A stretch of 6,145 nt of DNA from a bacterium (lineage in GTDB: Bacteria > ARS69): assembly GCA_025774865.1 (NCBI GenBank), contig JALGZO010000235.1:1-6145 (forward strand), given 5' to 3'. Shown here piece by piece: positions 1-6,145 of the stretch. A model generated the notes under the pieces. It was not told the origin of the DNA and did not search any database. It worked only from the letters and a program-made list of their open reading frames with translations. Within the stretch, counting starts at the first letter, position 1. The number at the start of each line of letters is the position of its first letter. The position numbers were made by a program, and so were the translations under genes.

Positions 1-198
1 CGCCGCGTCGAGAACGCCGCGCGCCGCGCGCAGCTGGCTTTCCCAGATCTCGCCCGCATCGTGCTCGACCCAGCCCGGCTGGCGGAAGTGCTGCGTGAAT
101 TCGTACTGGTCGCTGGCGACGATGGCGCCTCGGCCGTCGAAGAGGATCGCGCGCGACGACGTCGTCCCCTGATCCAGAGCCATGATGAAACGACTCAA
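1..198 (-). CDS. glpK: Glycerol kinase, N-terminal fragment (runs off the window)
   Basis: This is the first 66 residues of an FGGY-family kinase that phosphorylates glycerol to sn-glycerol-3-phosphate with ATP in the cytoplasm. Seen: the first phosphate-binding motif [11 protein letters not shown] directly after the start, then [16 protein letters not shown], which is characteristic of glycerol kinases among FGGY enzymes. The rest of the roughly 500-residue protein lies beyond base 1. I chose the TTG at 198-196 because the purine-rich stretch at 210-202 (AGGGGAGGG) is spaced correctly for it, and because the resulting [13 protein letters not shown] gives the usual first beta strand. The ATG at 183-181 would sit about 20 nt from that site and leave almost nothing before the motif. 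The gene follows ftsY after 30 nt on the same strand, so read-through from ftsY is likely. The family call is firm; the start is inferred. Confidence 0.9.
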
Positions 199-201
199 GG
201 G

Positions 202-210
202 CCCTCCCCT
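202..210 (-). promoter_or_regulatory. Ribosome binding site of glpK
   Basis: On the minus strand this reads AGGGGAGGG. Its GGAG core ends 5 nt before the TTG at 198-196 but about 20 nt before the first ATG at 183-181. It therefore decides the start choice in favour of TTG. Confidence 0.6.
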
Positions 211-226
211 CCGCGCGGCTCCGCGG
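211..226 (-). other. Small inverted repeat between ftsY and glpK
   Basis: CCGCG and CGCGG face each other across a 6-nt loop, just after the ftsY stop and before the glpK ribosome site. On the transcribed strand no T-run follows (the next bases are G-rich), so it is not a standard intrinsic terminator. It could protect or attenuate the ftsY-glpK message. In DNA this GC-rich it may also be chance. Confidence 0.25.
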
Positions 227-228
227 AA

Positions 229-1467
229 TCATTCCTCGAAGACGGCCTCCACGAACTCCTCGGCGGAGAAATCGCGCAGGTCATCGATGGCCTCCCCGAC
301 GCCGACGAACTTCACGGGAATCCCGAACTCGTCGGCGAGCCCGATGAGCACGCCGCCCTTGGCGGTGCCGTCGAGCTTGGTGAGCACGAGGCCCGTCACG
401 TTCGCGGCCTCGCTGAACAGACGCGCCTGCGAAATCGCATTCTGGCCCGTGTTGGAATCGAGCACCAGCAGGGATTCGTGGGGCGCGCCCGGAAGATCCC
501 GCCCGGTCACGCGCACCAGCTTCGAGAGCTCCTCCATCAGGGGCTTCTGGGTCTGGAGGCGCCCCGCCGTGTCGACGATGGCGACGTCGATCTTGCGCGC
601 GACGGCGGCCTTGACGGTGTCGAAGGCCACCGCCGAGGGATCCCCGCCCGACGGGCCGGAGACGACGTCACACCCGACACGCTCGCCCCAGCTCTGCAGC
701 TGCTCACTCGCGGCGGCGCGGAAGGTGTCGCCGGCGCCGAGGATCACGCTGTACCCCGCCTCCTTGTAGCGCGCGGCGAGCTTGCCGATCGTCGTCGTCT
801 TACCGGAACCGTTGACGCCGAACACGAGGATCACGTGAGGCTTCCCCTGCGTGGCGAGCGGCTCGCCCTTCGGCTCGACGCGCTGGAGCTTCTCGAGGAT
901 GGCCTGCCGCAACACGCCGCGAACGGTGCCGGCGTCGGCGCCGCTGGCCTGCGCCCGGACTGCCTCGAGGAGGCTCTCGGCCGTCTGCACGCCCAGGTCG
1001 GCGCTGAACAGCAGCATCTCGAGGTCCTCGAGCACCTCCGCATCGACCGTGCGACCGCCGATCAGCTCGCCGAGCCGTCCGACCAGGTGCTCGCTGGTCA
1101 GCCGCAGCCGATCGCGAAGACGGGCCGGTGGGGGTAGGGGCGCGGGAGCCGGCTCGGGTACGGGTTCGGGTACCGTCTCGCGCTCGTAGACCGGCTCGGG
1201 TGCGGGCATCGGAGTCGCCGCGCGCTCGGACACCACCTCCGGCGCGGTCTCCTCGGAGACCGCCACGGGCTCGGCGACGGCGTCCGGCTCCACCTGCGGA
1301 GCGGGCGGGGGGGGTGCGGCGCGGCGTGAGCGGAGGAGGAGCGCAAGTAGAACGATCAGCAGGATCGCGATCACGCCGAGCGCCAGCATCAGCGGGAGCG
1401 GGTTCGCCTCCGCCCACGCGGAGACGGCTTCGATCAGCGTCTGGATTTCGGATTGGAGGTCTTGCAT
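229..1467 (-). CDS. ftsY: Signal recognition particle receptor FtsY
   Basis: FtsY is the SRP receptor GTPase. It pairs with Ffh at the membrane and hands ribosome-nascent chain complexes to the Sec translocon. The protein has 412 residues. Domains in order: a strongly hydrophobic segment at about 24-45 followed by RSRR, a Pro/Glu/Ala-rich linker at about 51-115, the N domain helical bundle at about 116-205, and the G domain. The GTPase motifs are intact: GVNGSGKTTT (217-226), DTFRAAA (247-253), DTAGR (299-303), TKLDGTAKGG (363-372) and the closing GVGE (389-392). The N-terminal segment looks like a true membrane anchor, unlike E. coli FtsY with its peripheral acidic A domain; other bacteria are known to have anchored FtsY. 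The ATG at 1467 precedes the hydrophobic segment, but I see no good Shine-Dalgarno sequence before it. The gene is divergent from the transaminase and upstream of glpK. Confidence 0.97.
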   Translation of the reverse strand: MQDLQSEIQTLIEAVSAWAEANPLPLMLALGVIAILLIVLLALLLRSRRAAPPPPAPQVEPDAVAEPVAVSEETAPEVVSERAATPMPAPEPVYERETVPEPVPEPAPAPLPPPARLRDRLRLTSEHLVGRLGELIGGRTVDAEVLEDLEMLLFSADLGVQTAESLLEAVRAQASGADAGTVRGVLRQAILEKLQRVEPKGEPLATQGKPHVILVFGVNGSGKTTTIGKLAARYKEAGYSVILGAGDTFRAAASEQLQSWGERVGCDVVSGPSGGDPSAVAFDTVKAAVARKIDVAIVDTAGRLQTQKPLMEELSKLVRVTGRDLPGAPHESLLVLDSNTGQNAISQARLFSEAANVTGLVLTKLDGTAKGGVLIGLADEFGIPVKFVGVGEAIDDLRDFSAEEFVEAVFEE

Positions 1468-1565
1468 GCGGCCGCGGAGGATAACAGCGGCTTCGTGCCA
1501 TCACGAGCCCGGGAGCAAGGACGGGACGGGGGGTCGACGGGATCGTCGGGAACCTCGGAACGCCG

Positions 1566-1571
1566 TACAAT
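1566..1571 (+). promoter_or_regulatory. Candidate -10 box for the transaminase gene
   Basis: TACAAT matches the sigma-70 -10 consensus at five of six positions and stands out in this GC-rich divergent spacer. It would start transcription about 47 nt before the ATG at 1625. No convincing -35 lies at the right distance: the TTGACA-like TCGACG at 1534-1539 is 26 nt away. This is a weak call. Elsewhere in 1468-1624 I see nothing except the small hairpin at 1582-1596. Confidence 0.25.
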
Positions 1572-1581
1572 GAACCGCGCC

Positions 1582-1596
1582 AGGCTCTCGGAGCCT
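1582..1596 (+). other. Small hairpin in the transaminase leader
   Basis: AGGCTC and GAGCCT form a perfect 6-bp stem with a 3-nt TCG loop, about 28 nt before the transaminase start. It is too far from the ribosome site to block it and has no T-run. It may only stabilise the 5' end of the message. Confidence 0.25.
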
Positions 1597-1624
1597 CACG
1601 ACCCGAACGAAGCGAGGACAGGAT

Positions 1625-2608
1625 ATGGAGATCATTCGAGCCGGTGAGATCATGCTCACCGATCCGGCGCACCAGCGCCTTCCCCACGAGCCGGCCTACG
1701 GGCTCGGGGCGGCGTTCATCGCCGATCGGTTCTGTCCCCTCATCGAGGCGACCATCCCGATCACGGACTGCGGCTTCATGCACGCGGACGCCGTCTACGA
1801 CGTCGTGAGCGTGAGCCGCGGCTCGTTCTTCCGCCTCGAGCAGCACCAGGCCCGCTTCGCTCGCTCCTGCGACGCGATCCGGGTCCGGAACCCGTTCGGG
1901 CGCGAGGAAGAGGCGGAGATCCTGCACAAGATCGTCGCCCTCGCCGGATTGCGCGACGCCTATGTGTGGTGGACCGTGACCCGTGGGCTCCCCCCGCTCG
2001 GCCGGGGTGACATGATCGACGCCGACCGGTTCGAGAGCCGCTTCTACGCTTTCGCCGCCCCGTTCATCTTCGTCGCCGACGACGAGCAGCGCGCCCGTGG
2101 GCTCGATGTCATCGTGAGCCGCGAGCGCGTTCGAATCTCGCCCCGCGCCGTGGACCCGCGGGCCAAGAACTTCCACTGGCTCGACATGCAGATGGCGCTC
2201 TTCGAGGCCGGTGACCGAGGAGCGGAGTGGTCCGTCCTACCCGATGAGGACGGCTATCTGACGGAGGCGGCCGGCGCCAACGTCTTCGTGGTGCGGGACG
2301 GAACGGTCCTCACACCGGACGCGGGCTGCCTCGAGGGCATCACCCGTGAGAGCGTGTTCGATCTGTGCGCCGAGCTCGGCATCCCGTCGAAGGCCACCCG
2401 CGTGCGCGCCAGCGAGCTGCCCGACGCCCAGGAGGTCTTCCTCACGACGACAGCCGGGAGCATCATGCCCGTGCGCAGTGTCGACGGAGAGCTCGTAGGC
2501 GGGCGCGACGGGCCCGGCGAGATCTCGACCGCGCTCCACAACCATTACTGGGAGCGGCGCTGGGCGGGATGGGACGCGACGCCCGTGCGGTACGACCTCG
2601 CAATCTGA
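1625..2608 (+). CDS. Fold-type IV PLP transaminase, (R)-amine transaminase-like
   Basis: This is a class IV aminotransferase (branched-chain/D-amino acid transaminase superfamily) of 327 residues. Catalytic K181 in RAKNFHWLD forms the PLP aldimine. E214 in LTEAAGANVFVV contacts the pyridine nitrogen. GITRES (238-243) and TTTAG (274-278) fit the phosphate and carboxylate site loops. The order H53, Y58, V60 in FMHADAVYDVV, the long N-terminus, the flexible loop around R127 (PLGRGD) and the C-terminal TPVRY follow the pattern I recall from (R)-selective omega-transaminases of Arthrobacter and Aspergillus more closely than IlvE. The expected reaction is therefore amino transfer between a small amine or amino acid and a keto acid; the substrate is unknown. 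The ATG at 1625 has AGGA at 1615-1618; the ATG at 1652 (M10) is a weaker alternative. The gene stands alone, divergent from ftsY and convergent with the MBL gene. Branched-chain or D-alanine transaminase activity remains possible. Confidence 0.9.
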   Translation: MEIIRAGEIMLTDPAHQRLPHEPAYGLGAAFIADRFCPLIEATIPITDCGFMHADAVYDVVSVSRGSFFRLEQHQARFARSCDAIRVRNPFGREEEAEILHKIVALAGLRDAYVWWTVTRGLPPLGRGDMIDADRFESRFYAFAAPFIFVADDEQRARGLDVIVSRERVRISPRAVDPRAKNFHWLDMQMALFEAGDRGAEWSVLPDEDGYLTEAAGANVFVVRDGTVLTPDAGCLEGITRESVFDLCAELGIPSKATRVRASELPDAQEVFLTTTAGSIMPVRSVDGELVGGRDGPGEISTALHNHYWERRWAGWDATPVRYDLAI

Positions 2609-3613
2609 CGGACGGCCCGACGGACGGGTGGGGGACGGATCTCCGTCGACCAGCTCGCGCCGAATCAGCCCCTTGGTCTCGACGTACCGGAGGTGGGCGA
2701 TCGCCTCGCCCGTCGCAAACCACCGCTGCATGATCGGGAAGTCGCCCCAGCAGCGGGCCACGATGTCCCAGCTCATCTCGGAAGCGGTCTCGTAGGCGGT
2801 CTTGCGGCCTCCGGTGACGATGGTGATCACCTCGTTCGCCCGCTCGCGGTGATGCTCCACCAGCTCCGCGATCCTCTTCCCGAAGTCCTCGATGAGGCGC
2901 CGGTGGCCTGGCAGACAGAGCTCTACGTCCAGCTCGTCGACCTTCTCCAAGCTCGAAAGGTAGACGGCAAGCGGATCGTGGTCGTCGGTCCAGGCCTGGA
3001 TGTTCGGCGTGATGTCGCCGAGGACGTGGTCCCCGGAGAAGAAGATCTTCTTGTGAGGCTCGTAGACCGAGATATGACCGTTCGTGTGGCCGGGCGTCGG
3101 CACGATCTCCAGCCGGTAATCACCGACCTCGAAGACCTCTCCGCCGTCGAGCGAGACGTAGTCCACGATGGTCGACGGACCGAACTTGTTCCCGGGGTGG
3201 TTCTGTAGCGAGGCCCGCAGCTCCCCGGCCGGGAAGCCGCTGCGGGCCGCGTACTCGGCGACGGGGTTGTCCTCCAGCCAGTGGTCGAAGCCGGAGTTCA
3301 TCAGCGCGGCGTCGAGCGCCCCCATGAACGCCCTCGAGCCGCTCCGGAGCAGCGTCGGAATCAGCGCCGCGTGATCCGCGTGCAGGTGCGTCGCGATGAA
3401 ATCCGTCCGCTCGAGGTCTACCCCGATCTCGTCGAGACTGTTCTCCAGGACTTCACGGCAGTCCGGCCGATTCATGCCCGTGTCGATGATCAGGTTGCGA
3501 TCGTTCGACGTCAGGACATAGGAGTTGATCTCCCTGAGCGGATTCCCGGTGAGGGGAATCACCACGCGGTAGAGCCGAGGCAGTATCTCTTCGAACATCT
3601 TCTCGTTTCCCAT
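2237..3613 (-). CDS. MBL-fold metallo-hydrolase with winged-helix C-domain and run-on tail
   Basis: This is a metallo-beta-lactamase-fold hydrolase of the LACTB2-like type. Numbered from the ATG at 3613, the dinuclear metal ligands are complete: HLHADH (H76, H78, D80, H81), H176 in PTPGHTNGH, D195 in FSGDH and H237 in LPGH. Residues about 245-325 form a winged-helix-like domain (ATGEAIAHLRYVETKGLIRRE) typical of this group, whose members are mostly hydrolases of thioesters, nucleic acids or lactone-like substrates. The substrate here is unknown. Conserved sequence ends near residue 325 (base about 2639). No stop follows, so the frame continues 133 more residues of Arg/Pro-rich sequence, most of it antisense to the transaminase gene. 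The ATG at 3598 (MFEEILPRLY) is an equally good start: GGAAGGA touches the ATG at 3613 and is 15 nt from the one at 3598. The frame is open to 3814, but that part overlaps aroE and looks non-coding. Confidence 0.88.
   Translation of the reverse strand: MGNEKMFEEILPRLYRVVIPLTGNPLREINSYVLTSNDRNLIIDTGMNRPDCREVLENSLDEIGVDLERTDFIATHLHADHAALIPTLLRSGSRAFMGALDAALMNSGFDHWLEDNPVAEYAARSGFPAGELRASLQNHPGNKFGPSTIVDYVSLDGGEVFEVGDYRLEIVPTPGHTNGHISVYEPHKKIFFSGDHVLGDITPNIQAWTDDHDPLAVYLSSLEKVDELDVELCLPGHRRLIEDFGKRIAELVEHHRERANEVITIVTGGRKTAYETASEMSWDIVARCWGDFPIMQRWFATGEAIAHLRYVETKGLIRRELVDGDPSPTRPSGRPSDCEVVPHGRRVPSRPAPLPVMVVERGRDLAGPVAPAYELSVDTAHGHDAPGCRREEDLLGVGQLAGAHAGGLRRDAELGAQIEHALTGDALEAARVRCEDRSVPHHEDVGAGRLRQIAVLIG
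2607..2627 (+). repeat. Short direct repeat at the convergent gene junction
   Basis: GACGGACGG occurs twice with a 12-bp period (2607-2615 and 2619-2627). It covers the transaminase stop and the place where the MBL gene should end. A third GACGGA follows at 2634-2639 and pairs with TCCGTC at 2642-2647, but with only a 2-nt loop. No recognisable bidirectional terminator is present. Confidence 0.5.
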
Positions 3614-3659
3614 TCCTTCCGCGTTCCGGCGCGCCGCGATCAGCTCCCGATAGTAACGA

Positions 3660-3672
3660 AAACGGGGCGTTT
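3660..3672. promoter_or_regulatory. Inverted repeat in the MBL-aroE divergent spacer
   Basis: AAACG and CGTTT are separated by GGG in the 151-nt spacer (3614-3764), next to the least GC-rich patch there (TAGTAACGAAAACG). The position suits an operator acting on one or both divergent genes, but the arms are only 5 bp. A minus-strand TACTAT at 3655-3650 could be a -10 for the MBL gene; it has no matching -35. I see no other structure in this spacer. Confidence 0.2.
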
Positions 3673-3764
3673 CTGACGCATCGGCCTCCCGGCGCCGCGG
3701 AAACCCGCCCGGCTGGGCTACGGTTCCCCGACCGAGGGGTCCGCGCAGCGTAGGCGGGGTAGGA

Positions 3765-4634
3765 ATGAGAGCCATTGCCGACATCAGCGCCAGGACGAAG
3801 CTCTGCGCCGTCATCGGAAACCCGGTGGGTCATTCCCTGTCGCCAACGATCCACAACCGGGCCTTCCAGGAGCTGGGACTCGATTTCGTCTATCTGGCCT
3901 TCCGCGTGGAAGACGTGGGGGCTGCCGTATCGGGGATGCGCGCTCTCGAGAACTTCCGCGGGCTTTCCGTGACGATTCCGCACAAGGTGGCGATCATCGA
4001 TCATCTGGACGAGATCGCCGACGTCGACGCGCAGATCGGCTCCATCAACACCGTGGTGAACGAAGACGGGAAGCTCCGCGGCTTCGGAAGCGACGGCCCC
4101 GGCGCCCGCCAGGCGCTCGTCGAGAGCGGTGCGTCGGTGGCGAGCCAGCCCGTCCTGGTCCTGGGCTCGGGCGGAGCCGCGCGAGCCATCGCTTTCGACC
4201 TGGCCCATCGCGAGACCCCCTCGTCGTTGGTCGTCCTGGGCGTCATCGAAGACGAGCTGGGAGCGCTCGTACAGGAGCTGAGCGAGAAGACCGGTGTGAA
4301 CGCGGCGGGCGAGCTCCTCACCGAGGACAGTCTCGAGAGGCGGATCGCGGAGAGCCGGATCCTCATCCACGCCACTCCGATCGGGATGCACCCGAGGGAG
4401 GAGGAGAGCCTCGTTCCACCGGAGCTGCTGCACCCGGACCTCACCGTCATGGACATCGTCTACAACCCCTACGAGACCAGGCTTCTCGCGGACGCCAGGG
4501 CCCGGGGACTCCGGACCGTCCCCGGCGTCGAGATGTTCGTCAACCAGGCCCTGCTCCAGTTCGAGGCATGGACGGGAGAGCGCGCTCCCAGGGAAGTCAT
4601 GAAGCAGGTCGTCCTCGACCATCTCGACGGTTGA
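3765..4634 (+). CDS. aroE: Shikimate dehydrogenase
   Basis: AroE reduces 3-dehydroshikimate to shikimate with a nicotinamide cofactor, step four of the shikimate pathway, in the cytoplasm. It has 289 residues, a normal length. Substrate domain: VIGNPVGHSLSPTIHN (S24, S26), the catalytic Lys K74 in SVTIPHK, N95 in SINTV, and the catalytic Asp D110 in GFGSDGPG. Cofactor domain: GSGGAARA (134-141), ATPIGMHP (203-210), DIVYNP (230-235) and the closing QALLQFEAWTG (261-271). Two sites are unusual. The family's GxNTD reads GFGSD. The NRT-type NADP-binding motif after the second Rossmann strand is replaced by LGVIEDE (158-164). The ATG at 3765 is preceded by AGGCGGGG (3752-3759), and the protein starts just before the conserved ISARTKLCAVIG. 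aroK follows after 18 nt, so the two probably form an operon. Confidence 0.95.
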   Translation: MRAIADISARTKLCAVIGNPVGHSLSPTIHNRAFQELGLDFVYLAFRVEDVGAAVSGMRALENFRGLSVTIPHKVAIIDHLDEIADVDAQIGSINTVVNEDGKLRGFGSDGPGARQALVESGASVASQPVLVLGSGGAARAIAFDLAHRETPSSLVVLGVIEDELGALVQELSEKTGVNAAGELLTEDSLERRIAESRILIHATPIGMHPREEESLVPPELLHPDLTVMDIVYNPYETRLLADARARGLRTVPGVEMFVNQALLQFEAWTGERAPREVMKQVVLDHLDG

Positions 4635-4652
4635 ACGCGAGAAGGTGAATCG

Positions 4653-5006
4653 ATGAATCTCGTACTGATCGGGTATCGAGGCGCGGGGAAGTCGGCGGTC
4701 GCCGGGATCGATACCGGCGGCGGCGTGATCCTGCGGCCGGAGAACACCCGCAACCTGCGCCGCGGCGGCGCGGTCTTCTGGCTCAAGGCCTCGGTTGAGG
4801 TGATCGTCGATCGCATCCGGGAGAGCACCGAACGACCCGCCCTGACCGAGGGCAAGTCCTTCCTGGAGGAGGTCGAGGAGGTCCTCTCCGAGCGCCTGCC
4901 GCTCTACCGGGCGGCTGCGGACCACGAGGTCGACACCGACCCGCTGACCCCGACCGCGGTCGCGGACGAGATCATCCGGAGGTTCCGCGCACCGGCGGGC
5001 GATTGA
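4653..5006 (+). CDS. aroK: Shikimate kinase with large internal deletion, probably inactive
   Basis: A normal shikimate kinase phosphorylates shikimate to shikimate-3-phosphate with ATP. The parts present are clearly of this family: Walker A GYRGAGKS (7-14), TGGGVILRPENTRNLRRGGAV (21-41, listed here only to GGG 22-24 and RPEN 28-31 as key points), the lid region ERPAL (60-64), ERLPLYRAAAD (80-90) and VDTD (93-96). The protein has only 117 residues against the usual 165-175. The gap lies between S14 and T21: about 54 residues are missing in frame, taking the Asp-x-Asp that binds magnesium and shikimate and the FR arginine that grips the shikimate carboxylate. Without these the product should not bind shikimate normally. 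The start at 4653 has AAGGTGA (4642-4648). It is coupled to aroE. It could be a decayed gene with a second kinase elsewhere, or an assembly error. Confidence 0.85.
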   Translation: MNLVLIGYRGAGKSAVAGIDTGGGVILRPENTRNLRRGGAVFWLKASVEVIVDRIRESTERPALTEGKSFLEEVEEVLSERLPLYRAAADHEVDTDPLTPTAVADEIIRRFRAPAGD

Positions 5007-5029
5007 TACGAGCTGTCCTCGGGGGGCGG

Positions 5030-5215
5030 CTACGCGATGGCCTCTTCGTTCTCGTCGACGCCGAGCTGCGTGAGCCGCTGCGAGAGCGCGTCGAAGGCGT
5101 CGACCTCGTCGGGGACGACGTACTCCGAGAGAATCGAGAAGACGACGCCGGGAATGAAGATGTGGTTCCCTACCCTTCTCGTCTGCCGATTGGACGAATG
5201 GATTTCGCGCTTCAT
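5030..5215 (-). CDS. Small hypothetical protein
   Basis: A 61-residue ORF that I do not recognise. It has a basic N-terminus (MKREIHSSNRQTRR), a hydrophobic middle (HIFIPGVVFSILSEYVV, about 18-34) and an acidic C-terminus (GVDENEEAIA). This is balanced, protein-like composition, unlike the Arg/Pro/Ser-rich shadow frames nearby, so I think it is real. The hydrophobic part is short and contains Pro and Glu, so a membrane span is doubtful. The start at 5215 lacks a clear Shine-Dalgarno sequence; GGAG on the minus strand is about 20 nt away. It is convergent with aroK (23 nt between stops) and divergent from dodecin. Confidence 0.5.
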   Translation of the reverse strand: MKREIHSSNRQTRRVGNHIFIPGVVFSILSEYVVPDEVDAFDALSQRLTQLGVDENEEAIA

Positions 5216-5241
5216 GTCAGGTGTAAGCGACTTCCACTCCC

Positions 5242-5287
5242 GGTTCGAGAACCCCCGCCAGCGACCCTGCTGGCAGGGGGAACAACC
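5242..5287. repeat. Strong GC hairpin in the spacer upstream of dodecin
   Basis: CCCCCGCCAGC (5252-5262) pairs with GCTGGC plus GGGGG (5269-5280) around a 6-nt loop, with a single bulged A at 5275. An outer GGTT/AACC pair (5242-5245 with 5284-5287) closes it beyond an internal loop. Neither strand has a proper T-run behind the stem, so a factor-independent terminator is not convincing. It lies just upstream of the small minus-strand ORF start and could be a leader structure or a REP-like repeat unit. Confidence 0.55.
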
Positions 5288-5325
5288 AGCAGGCTAGAGT
5301 GTTGTAACAGGTGGGAGGCAGTAGG

Positions 5326-5337
5326 CAATCGCGATTG
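5326..5337. promoter_or_regulatory. Perfect 12-bp palindrome, possible operator
   Basis: CAATCGCGATTG is its own reverse complement and lies in the non-coding stretch between the small minus-strand ORF and dodecin. It abuts the 7-bp tandem repeat. A dimeric regulator site is possible but not shown. Confidence 0.3.
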
Positions 5338-5363
5338 GACGCTGGACGCTGGACGCTGGACTC
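5336..5363 (+). repeat. Heptanucleotide tandem repeat
   Basis: TGGACGC is repeated three times exactly (5336-5342, 5343-5349, 5350-5356), followed by a degenerate copy TGGACTC (5357-5363). It is in non-coding DNA 50 nt before dodecin. A similar near-repeat, GGCAGTAGGCAAT (5317-5329), comes just before. Such 7-bp arrays are prone to slippage and are common in intergenic spacers of some bacterial genomes. Confidence 0.85.
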
Positions 5364-5412
5364 CGCCTTCACGGTGCGTCGATACGGGAAACATCGAACG
5401 GGGAGAGAAGTC

Positions 5413-5616
5413 ATGCCGGACAAGACCTACAAGAAGATCGAGATCGTCGGAGTCTCCGAGAATTCTATCTCGGAGGCCATCGGAAACGCTCTGACGAAGG
5501 CATCGGAAACCGTGCGCAACATCGACTGGTTCGAAGTCGTCGGCACACGCGGATACGTCAAGGGGACCAAACCCGTATTCCAGGTAGAACTGAAGATCGG
5601 ATTTCGTATCGAGTAG
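5413..5616 (+). CDS. Dodecin family flavin-binding protein
   Basis: Dodecins are small proteins that assemble into hollow dodecamers and bind flavins (FMN or riboflavin) and in bacteria also CoA, acting as flavin buffers or stores in the cytoplasm. This one has 67 residues, the usual length. The typical order is present: KKIEIVGVSENSISEAIGNAL (key: the VG-S-SI-AI pattern, 12-23), then RNIDWFEVVGTRG (35-47) with the flavin-stacking W39, and FQVELKIGF (56-64) with Q57, which in known dodecins contacts the isoalloxazine. The start at 5413 is supported by GGGGAGAG (5400-5407) at good spacing. The frame is open upstream to 5311, but that part crosses the tandem repeat and lacks dodecin sequence. 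A flavin oxidoreductase gene follows after 62 nt on the same strand. Confidence 0.95.
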   Translation: MPDKTYKKIEIVGVSENSISEAIGNALTKASETVRNIDWFEVVGTRGYVKGTKPVFQVELKIGFRIE

Positions 5617-5636
5617 CGACTCGCGGATGAAGATGA

Positions 5637-6145
<509 letters not shown>

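Follow-up and report, generated by a model that had tools for sequence, protein, structure and literature searches.

Why does the shikimate kinase gene behind aroE on this contig encode a protein too short for its family, and to which organism does it belong? The window analysed here (positions 1-6145) is contig C238 in its entirety, 6145 bp long and placed in a metagenome bin of 785 contigs that is 92.65% complete and 8.3% contaminated. A reading of the DNA alone (hereafter the sequence-only reading) had proposed that the gene carries a clean internal deletion that is either recent, the mark of a protein with another job, or an artefact. We find it highly probable (roughly 88%) that the gene is an ordinary aroE-linked kinase minus 165 bp in frame, on a contig foreign to its bin, and that the gap arose by recent deletion or assembly error. 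The features of the locus are:

3765-4634, + strand: aroE, shikimate dehydrogenase, intact (NCBIfam NF001319 over cut-off)
4653-5006, + strand: ORF of an aroK-like shikimate kinase with an internal deletion, 117 aa (from the ORF, Pfam and the full-length copies of relatives)
4653-4706, + strand: kept N-terminal piece, residues 1-18, with strand 1 and Walker A GYRGAGKS (comparison with OFTM73)
4701-4712 (about), + strand: deletion junction, 55 codons (165 bp) absent relative to relatives (codon alignment)
4707-5003, + strand: kept C-terminal piece, residues 19-117, with TGGG, ERPALT (lid Arg) and the R-PLYRAAA region (comparison with OFTM73)

The 117-residue product of the ORF begins with MNLVLIGYRGAGKSAVAGIDTGGGVILRPENT and belongs to the shikimate kinase family, scoring 72.4 bits against PF01202 (SKI; cut-off 22.1, E 6e-20). 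The match covers only profile positions 66-157 of 159, corresponding to protein residues 19-110. The Walker A motif GxxGxGK[ST] is present as GYRGAGKS at residues 7-14, and Thr21 of TGGG follows Lys13 after only 8 residues, as had been read from the sequence. Three further elements occupy invariant alignment columns and are retained: the GGG at residues 22-24, Arg61-Pro62 (the lid Arg), and Arg81 of R-PLYR (the C-terminal Arg, Arg136). NCBIfam equivalog scores lie below cut-off for the short protein and for the intact copy of the Deltaproteobacteria metagenome-assembled genome (MAG) OFTM73 alike, so that a low score is no sign of the deletion. A homoserine kinase model in the hit list (NCBIfam hom_kin_desulfo) is outscored by the shikimate kinase models for both short and full-length proteins.

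The extent of the gap was defined by a codon alignment with the aroE-adjacent orthologue of OFTM73 (L033) and 14 other full-length homologues, including those of CSMAG_998 (L034) and CTSoil_040 (L035). A single gap separates residues 18 and 19; it spans exactly 55 codons (165 bp), within the 150-170 bp that had been expected, and no frame-breaking change accompanies it, in keeping with the earlier view that the frame is maintained. Full-length orthologues without the gap adjoin aroE in OFTM73, CSMAG_998, CTSoil_040 and others; the comparison with the closest genomes that had been suggested as a check thus returns only uninterrupted genes, and the upstream neighbour of the short gene is aroE, as in its relatives. 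The OFTM73 kinase (L033:5889-6413) likewise lies directly behind aroE and shares its start, Walker A region and TGGG with the C238 copy, along with the lid and C-terminal motifs, but it retains the 55 codons with the shikimate-binding Asp and Arg that are absent from C238. The N-terminal piece, with a normal start and Walker A motif, matches OFTM73 at 84% identity across 19 residues, and the C-terminal piece at 70%.

To the left of the junction position OFTM73 reads GTCGCGGAGATC, and the junction in C238 reads GTCGCCGGGATCGATACC. In the relatives the gap is flanked by GAGATC on the left (OFTM73) and by ATCGA(T/C)ACC on the right (several sequences). Both flanks are expected to carry GATC-like sequence, and for this reason the exact junction base cannot be fixed. 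A short GATC-like homology of about 4-6 bases at the junction is possible, as suggested by the relatives; we infer it, and any slippage, with those relatives standing in for the undeleted parent. The window otherwise contains only short or imperfect repeats near the junction, none of which pairs tellingly across it.

The missing block holds the P-loop helix past its first turn, the shikimate-binding part and the GW..FRD.E motif. Its nearly invariant columns are an Asp (column 32), Gly-Trp (51-52), Phe-Arg (55-56) and a Glu (59). The Asp and Arg columns align to Asp34 and Arg58 of Mycobacterium tuberculosis shikimate kinase, which every one of the 15 aligned full-length relatives has and the 117-residue protein lacks, both falling within the missing codons. 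In characterised shikimate kinases these two residues contact shikimate (PMC2593004, PMC7144000). The predicted loss of shikimate-site residues, including the Arg, is therefore borne out. It had also been proposed that a pair of Asp residues was lost, which holds for Asp34 only: full-length relatives in the clade carry Ser or Gly at the Asp32 position, and the deletion consequently removes one conserved Asp, not two. Indeed, Ser or Gly in place of the magnesium-linked Asp32, with Asp34 kept, is a feature of the aroE-linked kinases of this clade, seen in OFTM73 and in the other full-length members of the alignment.

An AlphaFold2 model of the short protein (15 sequences) has a mean pLDDT of 75.9, with residues 12-21 below 50, and the helix that follows Walker A in the P-loop NMP-kinase fold is not formed in it. 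Given the loss of Asp and Arg with the missing block and the unformed helix in the model, the product is very probably inactive as a kinase. Any polypeptide made from the gene is very probably unable to bind shikimate and, judging from the predicted structure, probably does not fold the P-loop helix.

Could the shortened protein be a remnant that binds ATP and has taken on another role? There is precedent in the plant shikimate kinase paralogues SKL1 and SKL2, which have lost activity and gained new roles (PMC2593004) and which, like the C238 protein, lack shikimate-site residues. The frame, the Walker A letters and the C-terminal motifs are all kept, and the exactly in-frame loss, which has a one in three probability by chance, could hint at selection for the product and in that respect counts against our preferred explanation. 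However, SKL1 and SKL2 are old and conserved across species (PMC2593004), whereas a single block is missing from C238, and from this one sequence only. The deletion is not shared by any relative found, the shikimate-specific residues of the C-terminal part are conserved rather than drifting, and the predicted structure has no helix after the P-loop. On these three grounds, the last amounting to a predicted break of the P-loop, a new function is disfavoured, and we regard it as highly unlikely. A version of this idea in which selection maintains the short protein as a remnant that binds ATP or regulates, in a deltaproteobacterial lineage that so far has no second genome, we consider extremely improbable. 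The case is an ordinary one: a known enzyme gene in a copy that is either broken or wrongly assembled, rather than a protein of a new kind. Recent deletion and artefact, two of the three options originally offered, are supported by full-length relatives and an undecayed remainder; the third, another job, finds no support.

The age of the loss was approached through the remainder of the gene and through its relatives. Over the 112 kept kinase codons compared between C238 and OFTM73, dN is 0.19 and dS 0.44. With CSMAG_998 as the outgroup, the kept part shows nine unique amino acid changes in C238 and nine in OFTM73; the corresponding numbers for AroE are 12 and 22. The kept part is undecayed, and its shikimate-specific motifs are intact. 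No internally deleted kinase occurs among the matches listed from 377 genomes of OFTM73's phylum, and the deletion was likewise not found in 72 aroE loci and 41 genomes drawn as relatives. No other genome of the species came to light, OFTM73's order yielded no AroE closer to that of C238 than OFTM73's own, and a search of the collected literature gave no internally deleted aroK. An undecayed remainder, together with a gap not shared by any relative found, points to a very recent loss or to wrong assembly.

Which organism carries the gene is answered by the other genes of the contig, two of which mark its flanks:

229-1467, - strand: ftsY, a marker of the contig's foreignness to the bin
5679-6143, + strand: NMO-family (nitronate monooxygenase-like) gene, truncated where the contig stops, a second marker at the other end

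FtsY, AroE, the kinase and the NMO-family protein of C238 match OFTM73 at 65-77% identity. FtsY is 65% identical to OFTM73 and 49-53% to the bin's own family; AroE is 77% identical to OFTM73 and only 29-31% to AroE of the bin's own type; and the NMO-family protein is 69% identical to OFTM73, 64% to CTSoil_040 and at best 34% within the bin's family. The C238 kinase shares 30-37% identity with the kinases of four members of that family (G001-G004). The bin contains second copies of three of these genes on other contigs: a full-length kinase on C235, 64-75% identical to G001-G004; an AroE on C184, 45-47% identical to G002 and G003; and an FtsY on C534, 64-74% identical to G001-G003. The two ends and the middle of C238 all point to one foreign lineage, and the contig is very probably misbinned, best read as coming from an organism related to OFTM73.

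Tetranucleotide usage does not by itself separate the contig from the bin (correlation of C238 to the pooled bin contigs, 0.70; range among bin contigs, 0.56-0.85), and this similar composition may explain how C238 came to be placed there. Together with the similar G+C content (66.8%) and the binning itself, it is also what speaks for a contig native to the bin's organism, which would then hold aroE, aroK and ftsY in duplicate, with one set gained by transfer. Against such a transferred set stands the consistent match of C238, at both ends and in the middle, to one other lineage (65-77%). The bin already has FtsY, AroE and kinase of its family's type, and a single FtsY gene is present in each of G001, G003 and G004, although G002 (6% contaminated) has a second, partial match. 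We therefore judge a native origin very unlikely. The suggested search for a second shikimate kinase did yield the full-length gene on C235, but this belongs to a different organism, because C238 is itself the probable contaminant. The bin's own lineage lacks nothing, having a full-length kinase, AroE and FtsY. Left unchecked, the bin could let the contig pass for evidence of a lineage losing or rewiring its shikimate kinase, and other findings from the window (1-6145) should be attributed to the OFTM73-related organism, not to the bin's own lineage.

On the preferred reading, then, the gene is an ordinary aroE-linked shikimate kinase of the type found in OFTM73 and other deltaproteobacterial MAGs. 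It lacks 165 bp in frame, and this loss would have come about either through a recent deletion among the sampled population, for which slippage at short GATC-like repeats is a possible route, or through an error of metagenome assembly. The contig was placed in the bin of another lineage, which has an intact shikimate kinase of its own. We regard real deletion and artefact as about equally probable. A real and recent deletion knocking out aroK in the sampled strain, to which we assign just under even odds, accords with the clean junction in an otherwise open frame, with a remainder too free of decay to be old, and with GATC-like sequence on both sides that could permit slippage. Growth in the absence of aromatic compounds usually requires shikimate kinase, however, and the OFTM73 genome has only one match to the family; a strain so affected would have to import aromatic amino acids or encode another kinase on a contig left out of this bin.

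If instead the 165 bp exist in the organism and were dropped when the contig or its consensus was built, which we put somewhat short of an even chance, the intact aroE and the full conservation of the kept aroK part are as expected of a whole gene, and the bin is a fragmented and contaminated one. The preserved frame at the junction argues the other way, as does the short length of the putative junction homology, which at about 4-6 bases is far under the word size of the usual assemblers. A search of the bin for the missing 55-codon piece returned only the different kinase on C235 and weak P-loop matches; its absence from other bin contigs also counts against an artefact, though most of the organism probably lies outside the bin.

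Three further genes lie on the contig. A class IV aminotransferase (1625-2608, + strand) has no close match in OFTM73 or in the bin's family, its best being 46% identity in another genome (G028). A dodecin gene (5413-5616, + strand; PF07311, E 1e-22) lies between aroK and the NMO-family gene. Positions 1-198 (- strand) hold the start of a glycerol kinase-like protein, named by eye from its sequence and cut by the contig end.
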